Source: Treponema sp. (lineage in GTDB: Bacteria > Spirochaetota > Spirochaetia > Treponematales > Breznakiellaceae). Taken from it: a stretch of 32,814 bases of DNA. The position numbers were made by a program, and so were the translations under genes. Positions 27 through 7,404 of this stretch are shown here, piece by piece (position 1 is the first letter of the stretch; the number at the start of each line of letters is the position of its first letter). The notes beneath the pieces are model-generated. The model did not search any database. It was not told the origin of the DNA and saw nothing but the letters and a program-made list of their open reading frames with translations. The DNA is taken from assembly GCA_003245635.1 (NCBI GenBank), contig QKCO01000114.1, positions 1-32,814 of the forward strand, written 5' to 3'.

Positions 27-2585
27 TCAGGGCATGCGCAGAAGGTCCCGGGGCTTCGAACCCTGGGCCGGGCCTACCAGGCCCCGCTCCTCCATGAGCT
101 CCACCAGGCGCGCGGCGCGGTTGTAGCCGATCTTGAGCCGCCGCTGGATGAAGCTCGCGCTCGCCTTCCCCTGCTGCGCCACGATCTCGAGGGCTTTGTC
201 GTACAAGGGATCCTCCTCGTCGCCGAAAAGGCTCGGTTCGGGATTCTCCTCGTCTTCGTCGTCGTAGAAGATCTCCTCGTCGATGTAGTCCGGCTCGCCG
301 AGCGTCTTCACGTATTCGACGACGCGCTCAACCTCCTCCTCGGAGACGAAGGCGCCCTGCATGCGGATCGGGAAGGGATCGGTGACGCCGGCGTAGAGCA
401 TGTCGCCCTTGCCCAGCAGCTTCTCGGCCCCGACCATGTCGATGATGATGCGGCTGTCCATCTTGCCGGCGACCATGAACGCGATGCGGCTGGGAATGTT
501 CGCCTTGATCAGGCCCGTGATGACGTCGATGGACGGGCGCTGCGTGGCGAGCACCAGGTGGATGCCGACCGCGCGGCTCATCGCCGCCAGACGCGCCACC
601 GTGGACTCGAGTTCCTTGCCCGTGGTCGCCATGAGATCCGCGAACTCGTCGATGACCACGACGATGTACGGCAGGCGCTCGGTCGCGATGCTCCGCTCCT
701 TGATGCGCCGGTTGTAGCTTCGGATGTCGCGGACGCCCATCGAATCCAGAAGCGCATAGCGCCGCTCCATCTCGAAGATGCAGTACTGGAGAGCCTGGAA
801 GGCGCGCTTGGGTTCGGTGATGACCGGCGTCAGCAGATGGGGGATGTCGTTGTAGAGCTTGAGCTCGACGATCTTGGGGTCGATGAGGATGAGCCGGACC
901 TCCGCCGGCGACTTCTGGTACAGGATCGACAGGATCATCGAGTTCACGCAGACCGACTTTCCCGATCCCGTGGCGCCCGCGATCAAAAGGTGCGGGGTGG
1001 ATACCAGATCGATGGAGATCGCCTCTCCGGTGATGTCCTTGCCGAGAATCATCGGGATTTCGGGCTTCTTGCCTTCCCGGTGCAGCTCGCCCTCGACCAT
1101 TTCCTTGAAGGAGACGATGTTGCGCTTGCGGTTCGGCACCTCGATGCCGACCGCGTGCTTGCCGGGGATCGGCGCGACGATGCGTACGGACGAGGCGGCC
1201 AGCCGCAGTGCGATGTTGTCCTGCAGATTCACGATCTTGGAAAGCTTCACGCCGGGAGCCGGCAGGATTTCGAACATCGTGATGACCGGCCCCTTGCGGA
1301 TGCCGGTGACCTCTGCCTGGATCTTGAATTCCTCGAGGGTATTCTTGAGGATAAGCGCGGAGTCCCGGGTCGCCTGATCGATGATCCAATACTGACCGTC
1401 GGGATACGCGGTCAGTATGCCTTCGACGGGGATGCCGTACGGGGCGTTGGAGCGGCGGCGCGGCGGCGGCGCGGAATGCTCGCCGGCCATAGCCGCGGCG
1501 TGCTCCGCGGCGGCGCGGGACTTGGCTTCGGCTTCCGCCTCGGCGGCTGAAAGCGCCCGGTCGAGGTCGCCGCCGCTGTCCGGCCCTTCGGCCGCGGCGG
1601 GCGACGGCTCGGCCGAAGCGGGCGACGGCTCGGCCTCGGCGGCGGACGCGGCTTCCGGCGCCGCGGACGTTTCAGCCTCCCCGCGCGTCGGCGGCTCTTC
1701 CGGAATATCCGAGCCGACGGCGATTTCGGCGAGATCTTCCGCCGTTTCCGGGGATTCAGGCGCATCGACCGCCTCGACCGGTTCTATGGGACCTTCAGCG
1801 TCCGCCTCGGCATCGTCGCCGAGAAAGATCGCCGGATCGACGGGCTCCAGATCGGACGGCTCCTCGACCTTCGACTCTTCCTGCGGTTCGGAGACCGGCA
1901 TCGAAACGCCCGCCGGCCGGGACCGCCCTTCGCGCTCCGCGGCGACGCTGGCGAGTTCCTTGAGGGCCGGCAGCTCGGGATATCCGCGGAAGGCCGGCTC
2001 GGGCAGATCGTCGCCGGCCGGGATATCGCCTCCGACGGAAGCGGCGGCCAGGGGAACCGGCAGGAAGCGCAGCCTGATGCCTTCGGAAACCGGCTCTTCG
2101 CGCGGTGGATCGAACCTGACGGACCGCTTGCGCCTCCCGAAAATGAGTTCGGCCAAAGCGACGATGATCAGCCCCTCGACGACGGCGGCCGCTCCGACCA
2201 GAGCGGCGACGCCGGTGGGACTGAGGAACGATGGGATCGAAAGCAGCGGGAAGAACTCCTCCGGCCGGCGAACGACGGCCGCTCCGAGCGCCACCGTCAG
2301 GAACGGGAAGACGGAAGCGGCGAGCGCGAACAGACGGGCCGGGCGGTAGGTAGGATCGGCGAGGATGACCGCCGCGAGCAGGAGATAGGCCGGCACGAGG
2401 AAAGCGGCCAGTCCGTAGACACGGGAAAGAAAAATCCCGGCGAAGAATACGGGACTGTCGTATCCGAGCACCGCGGCGAAAATGGACAGCGCCAGGACCG
2501 CCGAAGACGAACCGAGGGCGACGGCCCCTATGAGCGCGCGGGGGAATTGAATTCGGGTTCGGGGCACGAGCGAGATTTCCTCCAT
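27..2585 (-). CDS. ftsK: DNA translocase FtsK/SpoIIIE, 852 aa
   Basis: Septum-anchored ATPase that pumps chromosomal DNA during division and dimer resolution. The sequence shows four hydrophobic segments in residues ~17-150, then a long acidic Ala/Glu/Pro-rich linker (~155-385). The RecA-like motor follows, with Walker A GATGSGKS (Lys543) and Walker B VVVIDEFADL (~645). A C-terminal winged-helix gamma domain, the part that reads KOPS sites in the family, covers the last ~65 residues (DKALEIVAQQGKASASF onward). The linker DNA holds a 21-bp direct repeat (18-bp identical cores at 1597-1614 and 1618-1635). The ATG at 2585 has no SD sequence, and GATAAT lies 6 bp upstream (2592-2597), though no good -35 is visible. 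It lies 29 bp after the transglycosylase gene, so cotranscription is also possible. Family assignment is secure. Confidence 0.97.
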   Translation of the reverse strand: MEEISLVPRTRIQFPRALIGAVALGSSSAVLALSIFAAVLGYDSPVFFAGIFLSRVYGLAAFLVPAYLLLAAVILADPTYRPARLFALAASVFPFLTVALGAAVVRRPEEFFPLLSIPSFLSPTGVAALVGAAAVVEGLIIVALAELIFGRRKRSVRFDPPREEPVSEGIRLRFLPVPLAAASVGGDIPAGDDLPEPAFRGYPELPALKELASVAAEREGRSRPAGVSMPVSEPQEESKVEEPSDLEPVDPAIFLGDDAEADAEGPIEPVEAVDAPESPETAEDLAEIAVGSDIPEEPPTRGEAETSAAPEAASAAEAEPSPASAEPSPAAAEGPDSGGDLDRALSAAEAEAEAKSRAAAEHAAAMAGEHSAPPPRRRSNAPYGIPVEGILTAYPDGQYWIIDQATRDSALILKNTLEEFKIQAEVTGIRKGPVITMFEILPAPGVKLSKIVNLQDNIALRLAASSVRIVAPIPGKHAVGIEVPNRKRNIVSFKEMVEGELHREGKKPEIPMILGKDITGEAISIDLVSTPHLLIAGATGSGKSVCVNSMILSILYQKSPAEVRLILIDPKIVELKLYNDIPHLLTPVITEPKRAFQALQYCIFEMERRYALLDSMGVRDIRSYNRRIKERSIATERLPYIVVVIDEFADLMATTGKELESTVARLAAMSRAVGIHLVLATQRPSIDVITGLIKANIPSRIAFMVAGKMDSRIIIDMVGAEKLLGKGDMLYAGVTDPFPIRMQGAFVSEEEVERVVEYVKTLGEPDYIDEEIFYDDEDEENPEPSLFGDEEDPLYDKALEIVAQQGKASASFIQRRLKIGYNRAARLVELMEERGLVGPAQGSKPRDLLRMP

Positions 2586-2614: not shown

Positions 2615-4840
2615 TCATTGAGCGGTCGCGGGGAAAAAACCGGCGACGACGCGGGCGAGCGGTTCGTTGCGGTAAAGATACCCGTATACGGCGGCGGACG
2701 CAAGAACCTTGCTCGCGTATTCGCGGGTCTCCTTGATCGGCACCGTCTCGAGGAAGAGGTCCTCAGGCAGCCCCGCTTGCGCCGAACGCCATCTGCGGAC
2801 CCGGGTTATGCCTCCGTTGTAGGCGAACAACGAAAGCACCGGACTCTTCAGCCGCTCGTTCAGGTTCGAAAGGTACCAGGCTCCCAGCGCGAGATTCGTC
2901 GCCGGATGGCTCAAATCGAGTCCGCCTTCCGGAAGATAGCGCAATTCCACTTGCTTTCCGATTCTGCGGGCGACATCCTCCGCGGTCGGCCGCATCAGCT
3001 GGGCCAAGCCTTCGGCGCCGGCCCGGGAAACGATAGAGGACATGAAGGCGCTCTCGATGCGGACCAGGCCGAACAGCATGTCCTCGGAAAGGCCCCAGCG
3101 CGATGCCGCCTGCCGTATCTCGAGCGGGTACGCGCGGGGGTACATCAGCTCCATGTCCGCGCGCGTCAGCGCGTAGCCCGGCCGTCGCGCGAGCAAGCCG
3201 ACGGTCCTGATCGAATCCCCCGGCAGCCCTTCCTGCGCGAAGCGGGCGGAAAGCGAGCGCAGATCGTCGGCGCTCAGCTCGCCGAGAAAGTACAGCGCGT
3301 ACCCATAGACGCCATCGCCCAGTCCATAGTCGAAGAAGGCGAGCAGAAAATCGACGGCAGGAGAATGAACGGTTTCGGCTTTGGCGGAAGCGGGGGGCGG
3401 AACGGCCGGACCTGCGGCAGAATCGTCGGCGCCGAAACGGTTCAGGGCAGCCTCGGCGGGTACCGGATCCAGCGACTCGCCCAGCTTCGCAGACGCGAGC
3501 GCCCGGTAATAGAAGGATGCGGCGTCGGATTCGAAGGCGATGCGGAAAAAAGATCGGGCGACGGCGATCCGAGAACGCGGCTTATCCGAACCGTTGCCGA
3601 GCAGACCGTCCCCGAGCATCTCCAGGGGACGGTCGGCTCCGATGTAGCCTTCCTCGACGGCCCTGCCGATGACGTAAGCGTACCGGGCTACGACCTCCGG
3701 CTCCGCCGCGGGACGGATCAGCCGGAAGGTTTCGACCAGTTCGCGCCAATATTTTCCGGAAACGAGCGCGCCGCAATACGATTCGAGAAAATCGGAAAAC
3801 GAATCGGCGTTCTTCCAAAGCGGCACGTACTTGCGCAGGAGCGGCACGGCGGAAACGGGAGAAAGCGCGGCTGCTCCGTCCAATACGTACCAGAGGCACG
3901 CGTCCCGCTGCGTATCGTCGGGAACCGAAGGCAGCGCGCGGGCGAACAGCCGGTTGGCCGCTTCGGTGTCCCCCGAGGACCGGCGCATCCGCCCCGCGTA
4001 GAAAAGCAGCCTGAAGCGCGAGGAATCGGTCAACGTCGAGCGCGACGCCCAGGATTCGAACAAGTCGGCGCCCTCGTCGGCAGCGCCTCCGTACTGAAAG
4101 GCCTTCCCGAGGTCCGCAAGCGTCTCCGGGTGGGCCAAGACGAAATCGGGTCCCTTAGAGATCGATTCGCGGAAGAAGGACAGAGCCTCCGCGTAGGAAC
4201 GCCGGAATACCGCGAAGCGCGCGCGGGCGATCCGTTCGAGCGCGGGGCCTTGCGGGCCCCCGCCCAGGAAGCCGGAAGCGGATTCCGCAACTGCGGCGAG
4301 CACCCGGCCGTATTCAGCCTCGACCGGCGCATCGTAAAGATAGGAGGACAGGACGATTCTGCGGTCCTCCGCGGCCGCGGCGAGCGCCTGGACGGCGCGC
4401 TCGGCCCCCGTCGCAGCCGGATCTTCGGCCGTGAACAGAGACAGCGCGCCGGCCGGGTCCCCCGCGCTCAGGCGCGCGGAGCCGAGCAGAGCCCGCGCGC
4501 CCCGATCGCTCGGGAATTCGCGCTCGTACCGCCCGACCGAGGCGAGCAGATTGTCCTTTTCGGAGCTGCCGGCGCGGACCGCGGCGGATTCGAGCTCGAT
4601 CAGCATGCGCGCCGCCTCGCGGCGGGCGAAGGATCCCGACCGGTCCCAGGCAAGCGACAGCAGCGCGGAACGCGCCTCCTCCGGCGCGCCGAGACGATCC
4701 GCCCGAAGCGCGACGAAGAAGGGAGCGTTTTCATCCAGTGAAGCCAGGACGTTCCAATCGCTCGGTTTCGACTCGAGCACGAAATCGATGTCGCCTACGG
4801 ATAGACGCGCGGCCGCTTCGGCGCGGGGCAAGCCCAACAC
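2615..4840 (-). CDS. Soluble-lytic-transglycosylase-like protein, probable lipoprotein
   Basis: Peptidoglycan-cleaving enzyme of the Slt/MltE type. A long alpha-helical, repeat-rich N-terminal part (~540 residues) precedes a C-terminal SLT domain with the ES motif RIESAF (Glu596 counted from GTG 4840, the predicted catalytic acid), then GLAQLM and the AYNGG motif. This architecture matches Slt70. The only conventional start near the 5' end is GTG 4840, which would give a protein without a signal. In-frame codons just upstream encode a typical lipoprotein signal: basic RRSRSS, hydrophobic VVFILAYAFAALA, and lipobox LASC with Cys at 4853-4855. No ATG, GTG or TTG was found in that frame before the signal. 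An ATT at 4886-4888 or a sequence error are the possible explanations. It follows the LysM gene and precedes ftsK. The family is firm; the start is not. Confidence 0.88.
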   Translation of the reverse strand: MLGLPRAEAAARLSVGDIDFVLESKPSDWNVLASLDENAPFFVALRADRLGAPEEARSALLSLAWDRSGSFARREAARMLIELESAAVRAGSSEKDNLLASVGRYEREFPSDRGARALLGSARLSAGDPAGALSLFTAEDPAATGAERAVQALAAAAEDRRIVLSSYLYDAPVEAEYGRVLAAVAESASGFLGGGPQGPALERIARARFAVFRRSYAEALSFFRESISKGPDFVLAHPETLADLGKAFQYGGAADEGADLFESWASRSTLTDSSRFRLLFYAGRMRRSSGDTEAANRLFARALPSVPDDTQRDACLWYVLDGAAALSPVSAVPLLRKYVPLWKNADSFSDFLESYCGALVSGKYWRELVETFRLIRPAAEPEVVARYAYVIGRAVEEGYIGADRPLEMLGDGLLGNGSDKPRSRIAVARSFFRIAFESDAASFYYRALASAKLGESLDPVPAEAALNRFGADDSAAGPAVPPPASAKAETVHSPAVDFLLAFFDYGLGDGVYGYALYFLGELSADDLRSLSARFAQEGLPGDSIRTVGLLARRPGYALTRADMELMYPRAYPLEIRQAASRWGLSEDMLFGLVRIESAFMSSIVSRAGAEGLAQLMRPTAEDVARRIGKQVELRYLPEGGLDLSHPATNLALGAWYLSNLNERLKSPVLSLFAYNGGITRVRRWRSAQAGLPEDLFLETVPIKETREYASKVLASAAVYGYLYRNEPLARVVAGFFPATAQ

Positions 4841-4904: not shown

Positions 4905-5870
4905 CTACTTCTTCGGAGGAACCTTGATGAAGGAGCCGGAAATAATGAGATCGGGGTTGCGGATATTGTTGAAGCGCGCGATGCGCGGGTAGAGCCAAGG
5001 ATTGCGATAGAAAGCCTCCGAGATATCCCATAAGGTATCGCCCCAGCGGACCCGATACCGGAATCCGGCCTTCGGAATCGTTTTGGGCACCTTGTACGTT
5101 TTCACCGGCGCGACCGGCCGGGTCCGGCGGGCGGCCGCTTCGGACTTGGAGACCGGAGCGGGAGCGGCGGGTTTCGGCGGCTCGACGCGCACGGGCTCCA
5201 CCGCAACGGGCTTCGGCGCCGCGGGAGCGGCCTTCGCCGGTTCCGGAGCGGGCTTCGGCGCCGGGGGCGGCGCGGGAACCGGCTTCTCGACGGCGGAGGC
5301 GGCGGGCTTTTCGGCAGGGGCGGCGGGCAGTCCGCTGAACACGAAGTACCAGAGCATGGCGCCGGCGCCGATCAGCACGACCAGCGCTATCAGGACCACG
5401 GGGATCAGGGGGAAATCGGCGCGGGCCGGACGGGCGTCCGCCGCGGCATCCCGCGCGTAAAGGCCGGGGGGAGGAGCAGATGGCGATTCGGTTTCGAGCT
5501 CGAAATCGGGGACTTCGTAGGTTTCGCCGTCCTCCATCGAATGGAGGAGCACGTTCAGCTGCTGGCGGCCGCCGGCGCCGGCGTCGAGATCGACCGCTTC
5601 GGCGACCAGCTCGTCGGCCCCGTCCGAGCCGATGACCAGCTCGATGGAAGGCTCGCCCTTCGGCTTCTCGACGATGTTCTCGACAACGAGACTGCCGATG
5701 TAGGAAGCATCGGCCATGCTGCGCGAATCGCTGCGGTACAGATCGATCTGCACGCTGCGCTGCCCGTCATGCACGGTCGTGAGGACCAGACGCTTCTTTA
5801 CGGTGGAGCCTTCCTCGAGGACAGGATAGAACTCCCCGTTCGCGATCTTGATACCGATGCTCGAAGCCAT
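4905..5870 (-). CDS. Membrane LysM protein with Hsp70 substrate-binding-domain-like N-terminus, 321 aa
   Basis: The C-terminal ~50 residues form a LysM peptidoglycan-binding domain (YRVRWGDTLWDISEAFYRNP ... IKVPPKK). A membrane segment lies at ~152-178 (PLIPVVLIALVVLIGAGAML), followed by a Pro/Ala/Lys-rich linker to ~255. The first ~110 residues read like the beta-sandwich substrate-binding domain of DnaK: an SIGIKIANGEFYPVLEEGST-type start, TTVHDGQRSVQIDLY, ADASYIGSL, KPKGEPSIEL, then DGADELVAEAVDLDAG. These align in order with the DnaK blocks (TTIP/T..DNQ.AV.IHV/ADN..LG.F/P.G.PQIEV/D.DGIL.V.A.D). No Hsp70 ATPase domain is present. The topology would place the Hsp70-like part in the cytoplasm and LysM outside. 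ATG 5870 is chosen because AAGGAAGG sits 8 nt upstream; GTG 5879 would lie on top of the SD. LysM and membrane segment are clear; the N-terminal assignment is by eye. Confidence 0.85.
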   Translation of the reverse strand: MASSIGIKIANGEFYPVLEEGSTVKKRLVLTTVHDGQRSVQIDLYRSDSRSMADASYIGSLVVENIVEKPKGEPSIELVIGSDGADELVAEAVDLDAGAGGRQQLNVLLHSMEDGETYEVPDFELETESPSAPPPGLYARDAAADARPARADFPLIPVVLIALVVLIGAGAMLWYFVFSGLPAAPAEKPAASAVEKPVPAPPPAPKPAPEPAKAAPAAPKPVAVEPVRVEPPKPAAPAPVSKSEAAARRTRPVAPVKTYKVPKTIPKAGFRYRVRWGDTLWDISEAFYRNPWLYPRIARFNNIRNPDLIISGSFIKVPPKK

Positions 5871-5893: not shown

Positions 5894-5922
5894 AATGTAG
5901 ACGCGCCGGCATGCTTTGTCAA
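5894..5922 (-). promoter_or_regulatory. Promoter for the LysM gene
   Basis: On the minus strand TTGACA (5917-5922), a 17-bp spacer and TACATT (5894-5899). The start codon is 23 bp further on with an SD sequence, so this is a conventional leadered transcript. It is divergent from the promoter of the TPR gene at 6022. Confidence 0.65.
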
Positions 5923-6021: not shown

Positions 6022-7404
6022 ATGTTCGGAATCGTCCCCATACTCGCGGTCGTCGTCTTCCTCGCCCTCGTCTTGATCGTCCTGTTGCTCGTGACGGGAA
6101 GAAAAAGCGACCGCAAAACAGACGCGCGCAAGAAGCAGAAGACGAAGGGGCGCGACGCGCTCATCCGCGACGCGACGCGCAAGCTCGCCCAGAATCCGAA
6201 GGATGCCGAATCGCTGGTCGCGCTCGGCGATCTGTACTACCGCGAGGAAGCCTGGGACAAGGCGCTCAAGACCTACGAAGTGCTCATCGAGCTCTGCGGC
6301 TCGAATCCCGATCTCGACGAGTTCGAGATCAACATGCGGTACGGGATGGCCGCCCTGAAGCTCGGCAGGACCGAGGACGCCCACAAGGGACTGGTGATCG
6401 CCCGAACCCTCAAGCAAAGCAATTTCGAAGTCAACTTCAACCTCGGCGTGCTCGAGTTCAACAAGAAAAGCTACGAGAAGGCCATTCAGCTGCTTCAACA
6501 GGCGCGCACCCAGGACCCCGACCACTCCCCTACCCTGCGCTACCTCGGCCACGCCCTCTTCCGCATCAAGAATTATCGGGATGCGCTGGCTCTCCTGCGC
6601 AAGGCGATCGATCTGAGCCCCGAGGATAAGGAATCCCTGTACGCCGTCGGCGAATGCTACTACGAGCTCAACAACACCGACCAGGCCATCAAGATATTCA
6701 CGCACCTGCGCGCCGATCCCGGCCTCGGCCCCAACGCGTCGCTGTTCGCCGGAACCATCCACCTCAACCAGCATCAGTTTCCCAAGGCGATCATGGACTT
6801 CGAAATCGGGCTCAAGCACGAAAACCTCAAGATCGAAGTCTCCGTCGAACTCAAGTACCGCCTGTCGATGGCCTACCTCAAGCAGCAGGAGATCGGCCGC
6901 GCGCTCGGGTTCCTCCGCGACATCCAGACCACCTACCCCAACTACCGGGACGTGCCGGCGCTCATCGCGAAATACCAGGAGCTCAACGCGAACAAGAACC
7001 TTCAGATTTTCCTGATGGCTCCGACCGGCGATTTCGTCACCCTCTGCCGCAAGGTGGCGCTCGCATACTTCCCCCACGCGAAGGTGAAGATCCTCGACAT
7101 TTCGGTGAACAAGAACGAATGGGCGGACATCCTGGCCGAAGTCGAGACGCGGAAATGGCAGGATACGGTCTTGTTCCGCTTCATACGCACCCAGGGGTCG
7201 ATCGGGGAACTCATACTCCGGGACTTCCACGCGCGAATCAAGGAAGTGAAGGCGGGCAAGGGCTACTGCCTGACGACCGGATCGTTCACCGAAGAAGCCC
7301 AACGCTTCGTCGAGGCGCGCCTGATCGACCTCATCGAGAAGGACCGGATCGGCAAGATCCTCGACTCGGTCGACTCCGGCGTGGCCACCCTGCCGATCGG
7401 CTGA
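6022..7404 (+). CDS. Membrane-anchored TPR protein with a degenerate Mrr-like C-terminal domain, 460 aa
   Basis: An N-terminal membrane segment (residues ~3-28, FGIVPILAVVVFLALVLIVL) is followed by a basic stretch. Tetratricopeptide repeats then run from ~45 to ~310 (for example AESLVALGDLYYREEAWDKA and PTLRYLGHALFRIKNYRDAL). The last ~130 residues differ: QIFLMAPTGDFVTLCRKVAL, then VLFRFIRTQGSIGELILRDF, GKGYCLTTGSFTEEAQRFVE and LIDLIEKDRI. The final blocks resemble the Mrr-type endonuclease fold (GxxxTTGxFTxxA, then xLIDxxxL). The expected catalytic D...QxK is not visible: the QxK strand reads FRF. A non-catalytic binding fold is therefore inferred. The TPR part would scaffold protein contacts near the membrane. 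It is divergent from the LysM gene and convergent with rsmG. TPR and anchor are secure; the Mrr relation is moderate. Confidence 0.87.
   Translation: MFGIVPILAVVVFLALVLIVLLLVTGRKSDRKTDARKKQKTKGRDALIRDATRKLAQNPKDAESLVALGDLYYREEAWDKALKTYEVLIELCGSNPDLDEFEINMRYGMAALKLGRTEDAHKGLVIARTLKQSNFEVNFNLGVLEFNKKSYEKAIQLLQQARTQDPDHSPTLRYLGHALFRIKNYRDALALLRKAIDLSPEDKESLYAVGECYYELNNTDQAIKIFTHLRADPGLGPNASLFAGTIHLNQHQFPKAIMDFEIGLKHENLKIEVSVELKYRLSMAYLKQQEIGRALGFLRDIQTTYPNYRDVPALIAKYQELNANKNLQIFLMAPTGDFVTLCRKVALAYFPHAKVKILDISVNKNEWADILAEVETRKWQDTVLFRFIRTQGSIGELILRDFHARIKEVKAGKGYCLTTGSFTEEAQRFVEARLIDLIEKDRIGKILDSVDSGVATLPIG

Follow-up and report, generated by a model that had tools for sequence, protein, structure and literature searches.

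Membrane Proteins of Spirochaetes Joining an Hsp70 Substrate-Binding Domain to LysM, and Their Possible Link to Periplasmic Flagella

Introduction

A single gene of a Treponema strain creates a puzzle: What could the substrate-binding domain (SBD) of an Hsp70 protein be doing when it has no ATPase beside it and is joined, through a membrane helix, to a LysM domain? The gene lies in a contig of 32,814 nucleotides (QKCO01000114.1, assembly GCA_003245635.1), the whole of which is called here the window. A first-pass annotation, made from the letters of the window alone, had recognised this arrangement and suggested that it links cytoplasmic or inner-membrane clients to the cell wall. Our analysis confirms the observation and lends partial support to the interpretation.

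The Gene and Its Domains

The coordinates first given for the open reading frame are confirmed. It runs on the minus strand from an ATG start at 5870 to a TAG stop at 4905-4907, and the source genome contains one full-length copy of the gene. Its features are the following:

4905..5870, minus strand: coding sequence of the SBD-TM-LysM protein, 321 aa (P0001), from ORF translation
5535..5861, minus strand: Hsp70 substrate-binding beta-sandwich, residues 4-112, eight strands (Pfam HSP70 above cut-off; AF2, Foldseek)
5409..5534, minus strand: acidic linker, residues 113-154, predicted to be cytoplasmic (26% D+E; conserved PDF(E/D) motif)
5337..5408, minus strand: single predicted transmembrane helix, residues 155-178, N-terminus probably inside (hydrophobicity, K/R bias)
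5058..5336, minus strand: Pro/Ala-rich spacer, residues 179-271, predicted to be periplasmic (low confidence in the model, mostly unstructured)
4917..5057, minus strand: LysM domain, residues 272-318 (Pfam LysM, 1.8e-7; model pLDDT about 90)
5894..5922, minus strand: sigma-70-like promoter match TTGACA-17-TACATT, 5' of the gene (consensus match only)

Such promoter matches number three in 1.5 kb, against 0.3 expected, and none precedes the following transglycosylase gene in the 1.5 kb scanned. PADLOC returned no match, and a defence-system reading was set aside.

The module at the N-terminus, proposed at first sight to be a DnaK-like beta-sandwich of about 110 residues, is a complete Hsp70 SBD beta-sandwich, on which Pfam, AlphaFold and Foldseek agree. 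Residues 4-81 match positions 393-472 of the Pfam HSP70 profile (23.3 bits against a gathering score of 20.6), NCBIfam models of DnaK match the protein through their SBD part alone, and phmmer searches of PDB chains retrieve the Hsp70 SBDs of many organisms (best E=3e-6). The structure prediction on which the proposal had been made to depend returned the Hsp70 fold: The full-length AlphaFold model, built with 33 aligned sequences, has eight confident strands within residues 4-108, followed by a helix (155-178) and an alpha-beta arrangement resembling LysM, with pLDDT of at least 90 for 134 residues and a mean mostly of at least 88 in the SBD region. All 50 top Foldseek matches of this model in the PDB are Hsp70 proteins, as are all 50 for the SBD alone (TM-score 0.72-0.84, mostly about 0.8), and superposition on DnaK SBDs gives an rmsd mostly about 2 A. 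Chance resemblance, or kinship with some other beta-sandwich, is ruled out by the Pfam, phmmer and Foldseek results. At the other end, residues 272-318 score 31.5 bits against a Pfam cut-off of 20.9 and belong to the LysM family, from which a capacity to bind peptidoglycan may be presumed.

Lost and Retained Parts of Hsp70

The protein begins at the position equivalent to DnaK 395, with no match to a nucleotide-binding domain (NBD) and no interdomain linker, so that the ATPase partner is indeed missing, as had been noted. The alpha-helical lid is also absent, the acidic linker and the membrane helix standing in its place after the sandwich. Lacking ATPase, linker and lid, the protein is not an Hsp70 chaperone by membership, and the loss of ATPase and lid makes a chaperone cycle impossible. 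The residue numbering and the set of peptide-groove residues used below are those which we take to be established for DnaK. Among 101 SBDs of the family, the features that couple the domain to the ATPase have disappeared: The linker and D393 are absent, I418-P419 is deleted in all 101 and K/R414 is replaced by E in 93. The groove presents the opposite picture, T428 and Q433 being invariant and I438 (100/101), I401 (I in 96/100) and V436 (88/101) nearly so or largely kept, with M404 always changed to A and A429 to V in 95. Mean column entropy is 0.49 bits in the groove vs 1.15 elsewhere (permutation p=0.005), which indicates constraint on the peptide-groove residues.

In a tree of SBD sequences, a branch with 100/99 support separates all those of LysM type from DnaK and Hsp70 paralogues, and the family can be considered on this basis to have a single origin, the exact source of which is uncertain because of the long branches. 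This single-origin clade, together with the complete and separate DnaK genes of related genomes, rules out a degenerate DnaK gene.

Distribution and Common Core of the Family

Some match was found in 57 of 59 related genomes, mostly to the fused protein and in some cases to DnaK or LysM alone, and the two-domain fusion is present in several families of the phylum besides that of the source organism. Among 25 orthologues, Pfam recognises LysM in every one and HSP70 in 23, and in the alignment of these members the SBD and LysM are far better conserved than the spacer. In a separate scan of contigs for relatives, the best 80 of 504 were all spirochaetal, judged by their titles. The survey of homologues that had been recommended has therefore found the same architecture across many genera and several families, which rules out an assembly artefact or a local fusion: SBD-TM-LysM is a spirochaete family and not a local oddity.

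The charges flanking the helix indicate its orientation. The 15 residues before it contain on average 4.3 K+R vs 2.3 in the 15 residues after it, and the N-terminal side is the richer in 62 of 76 proteins, the reverse being true in six. This bias favours the topology first envisaged, with the N-terminus inside, the SBD probably in the cytoplasm and LysM on the wall side. The stretch between SBD and helix varies from 29 to 386 aa across the family and contains 14-36% D+E, exceeding 20% in 22 of 23 sampled proteins. LysM was not detected in members of families f7 (Borrelia-type), f8, f9 and f12, whose proteins end soon after the helix. The common core of the family is hence formed by SBD, acidic tether and membrane helix, with wall binding as a frequent yet optional addition; the proposed linkage of clients to the wall cannot be the universal core, since LysM, present in most lineages, is dispensable in several, including the Borrelia type.

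The family reaches a genome of T. pallidum size, in which the gene order is SBD-LysM, transglycosylase and mnmG-like gene, and the SBD-LysM copy falls below HSP70 recognition. The gene lies there (L032) a few kb from the region that gene order would equate with TP0046-TP0048, genes that an interactome study of T. pallidum has reported as connected with motility (PMC2386257). TP0046-TP0048 as the orthologue itself is ruled out, because the flanking mnmG-like and adenosine-deaminase-like genes place the orthologue a few genes upstream.

Without LysM, the family extends to the Borrelia type, where the order is TPR, SBD-like, transglycosylase, UppP-like ORF and FtsK. The SBD-like protein has no Pfam match, and hhalign aligns its family profile with that of SBD-LysM at 94.4% probability over 63 columns, vs 1.5% with Hsp70 itself. 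Given this profile match and its position before the homologue of BB0259, the protein is most plausibly a diverged orthologue devoid of LysM, probably BB0260, a locus tag deduced from gene order, for which no relevant paper was found in the open-access literature.

These outlying members bear on a possibility that we consider unlikely, namely that the SBD fold now serves only for structure or dimerisation, with a groove that no longer binds peptides. In its favour are the Borrelia-type protein, in which the groove motif is eroded or gone, the copy of the T. pallidum-sized genome that escapes HSP70 recognition, the missing lid and the fact that the invariant K8, F14 and G59 of the 101 SBDs fall outside the groove set. 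Against this stand the significantly stronger conservation of the groove than of the rest of the domain in the same 101 members and the retention of hydrophobic residues in its pocket.

Neighbouring Genes

Three genes surround the SBD-LysM gene in the window:

2615..4840, minus strand: lytic transglycosylase, BB0259 family (NF047373, E=2e-131, 440 bits against a cut-off of 234)
27..2585, minus strand: FtsK DNA translocase (domain match)
6022..7404, plus strand: divergent TPR protein, conserved neighbour (neighbourhood comparison, domain match)

Transglycosylase and ftsK follow directly, as had been annotated, and lie on the same strand. The translated transglycosylase displays the motifs ES, GLAQ and AYNGG and the lipobox LASC. 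Its homology continues beyond the GTG at which the gene was called, as far as about 4894, through a signal-peptide-like stretch that ends in this lipobox; between 4840 and 4894 of the window there is no in-frame ATG, GTG or TTG upstream, which might reflect a rare start codon or an error in the sequence. The C-terminal part of the TPR protein matches the Mrr_cat restriction-endonuclease family (27.5 bits against a cut-off of 21), and the protein is kept as far as Borrelia-type genomes, in which the homologue matched TPR only.

An independent scan of the best 80 of 504 relatives found a transglycosylase homologue to be the next gene in 75 of the 76 loci with room for it, the single exception, L049, having a large SLT protein elsewhere; the divergent TPR gene adjoins in 60 of the 73 loci with room. 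The adjacency to the transglycosylase extends to other families and to the T. pallidum-sized genome. It is broken in family f6, in which the two genes are unlinked, and distant families also place the SBD-LysM gene elsewhere. In f6 the gene is followed by a protein of 1600 residues (L154:845-5710, L155:7310-12133), with bacterial Ig-like repeats in L155. FtsK follows in many loci, and rsmG and mnmG-like genes also occur in the neighbourhood; since FtsK and tRNA-modification genes share it, this adjacency is not one of flagella only.

Possible Association with Periplasmic Flagella

The hook of B. burgdorferi depends on BB0259 to cross the peptidoglycan, and FlgJ is an interaction partner of BB0259 (PMC8517470). 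Because the neighbouring transglycosylase is of this flagellar type, periplasmic flagella are the likely setting of the SBD-LysM protein, rather than a general link to the wall. The source genome has FliF, and among members of the order with genomes at least 90% complete, the SBD gene is present in 30 of 32 that have FliF and absent from four of five that do not, all four retaining the transglycosylase family. The association is significant by Fisher's test (p=0.001), a value that is overstated since it ignores kinship: The four FliF-less losses come from a single family-level clade and amount to about one independent event. A joint loss of the SBD gene and flagella in one clade is thus indicated. 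The one genome scored FliF-less that has the SBD gene, G039, probably represents a gap in FliF detection, because its congener G044 has FliF. In the other direction, G011 and G023 have FliF and lack the SBD gene, and some flagellated lineages, for example G322, have no orthologue beside the transglycosylase. The locus of the flagellated G023 (L163:977-3295) contains the transglycosylase and, upstream, only what is left of LysM, interrupted by two in-frame stops, with no SBD, an apparent case of gene decay. Retention of the BB0259-family enzyme in the FliF-less G043, G046, G049 and G058 suggests that it may act outside flagella in these organisms.

The same loci could be seen as evidence for a general scaffold of envelope and division, in which the SBD would bind a peptide of FtsK or another protein of wall synthesis or division, LysM would tie it to the sacculus and the adjacency to the transglycosylase would reflect a shared neighbourhood only. 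The frequent presence of FtsK downstream, which in family f10 follows the SBD gene directly with no transglycosylase between, speaks in its favour, as do the neighbouring rsmG and mnmG-like genes. However, the FliF-less genomes belong to organisms that divide and keep the transglycosylase, yet they are without the SBD gene, and the adjoining transglycosylase family is flagellar-specific in Borrelia (PMC8517470). We regard this scaffold as improbable.

Several relatives possess a second Hsp70 of full length, accompanied by an adjoining J-protein of its own (L168:5112-7528, L170:5265-7708, L171:4217-6539). In L168 its neighbours are sigma28/whiG-, fapA- and flhA-like genes, and fliF is about 27 kb away in several genomes; the pair is possibly a flagella-associated Hsp70 system. 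Derivation of the SBD-LysM family from this paralogue is suggested by better pairwise scores but finds no support in the tree, whose long branch leaves some room for it. A membrane holdase or adaptor that takes clients from this Hsp70/J-protein pair, encoded where the flagellar cluster ends in many relatives, or competes with it, is very improbable: The pair does adjoin flagellar genes and the paralogue's SBD resembles that of SBD-LysM more than DnaK's does, but the two SBDs stay apart in the tree, no such paralogue turned up in the T. pallidum-sized genome, which has the SBD-LysM protein, and the features for docking an NBD are lost.

A Possible Function for the SBD-LysM Protein

The explanation that we prefer, evenly poised in our judgement between right and wrong, is that of a type II protein in which a membrane-tethered SBD without ATPase holds an extended peptide from some flagellar or polar protein of the cytoplasm and LysM, where present, fastens the SBD to the wall. 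The SBD would sit in the cytoplasm on a flexible acidic tether, followed by a single membrane helix and, for most lineages, by LysM on the peptidoglycan. Devoid of lid and ATPase, it would be a constitutive, fast-exchanging binder of a short extended peptide, most likely one from a cytoplasmic component of the periplasmic flagellar base or of the subpolar site. The whole protein could then be an anchor or landmark, fixing the site of flagellar assembly relative to the wall and adjoining the place where the BB0259-type transglycosylase makes a passage for the hook through the peptidoglycan. Such a role in building flagella is probable because the gene adjoins that of the wall-opening flagellar enzyme. 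No experiment on any member of the family was found in the literature.

More tentatively, and with doubts that outweigh our confidence, one may imagine an Hsp70 SBD turned into a permanent, ATP-free membrane receptor, which would read a peptide tag on some flagellar or polar protein of the cytoplasm and couple that protein through the membrane to the wall and the local flagellar transglycosylase, as a landmark in the role that HubP and FipA have in other bacteria. If this were true, spirochaetes would have a concrete gene for marking the subpolar sites of their periplasmic flagella and the opening of the wall, and half of a universal chaperone would have found a new use as a fixed receptor that recognises peptides and spans cytoplasm, membrane and wall. 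We know of no described system of the latter kind.

Comparison with Known Systems

The protein is built from known parts, to which automatic annotation will already give LysM or Hsp70 names. A search of the open-access literature found no paper describing the fusion or its genes, in keeping with the initial impression that no system of this form had been described. With DnaK/Hsp70 (PF00012) it shares the eight-stranded fold, at a TM-score of about 0.8, and largely the groove residues, differing in the lack of ATPase, interdomain linker, lid and I418-P419, in its membrane tether and in its fusion to LysM. The adjacent gene is a member of the BB0259 family (NF047373), and its product, though no homologue of SBD-LysM, is the latter's likely partner in a shared process. 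SflA of Vibrio is a single-TM flagellar regulator that also borrows a module of the chaperone system, a DnaJ domain (PMC7226244), but it has a J domain instead of an SBD and is without LysM. FipA (DUF2802), which recruits FlhF, is reported to be confined to gamma-proteobacterial polar flagellates, spirochaetes using FlhF/FlhG without it (PMC11620751); like the role proposed here, it has a membrane-anchored cytoplasmic domain governing flagellar placement, yet it contains neither SBD nor LysM. The closest known architecture appears to be that of HubP, a cytoplasmic hub with LysM and one TM, in which LysM is required for polar localisation and which recruits FlhG (PMC7226244). If the order of parts is disregarded, the SBD-LysM protein has what HubP/FimV proteins have, namely LysM, one TM and a putative cytoplasmic partner-binding region, here on an acidic tether. 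It is not HubP, because this order is reversed: LysM is C-terminal instead of N-terminal, with the SBD replacing the HubP repeats, in a different phylum. The likeness would then be one of architecture.
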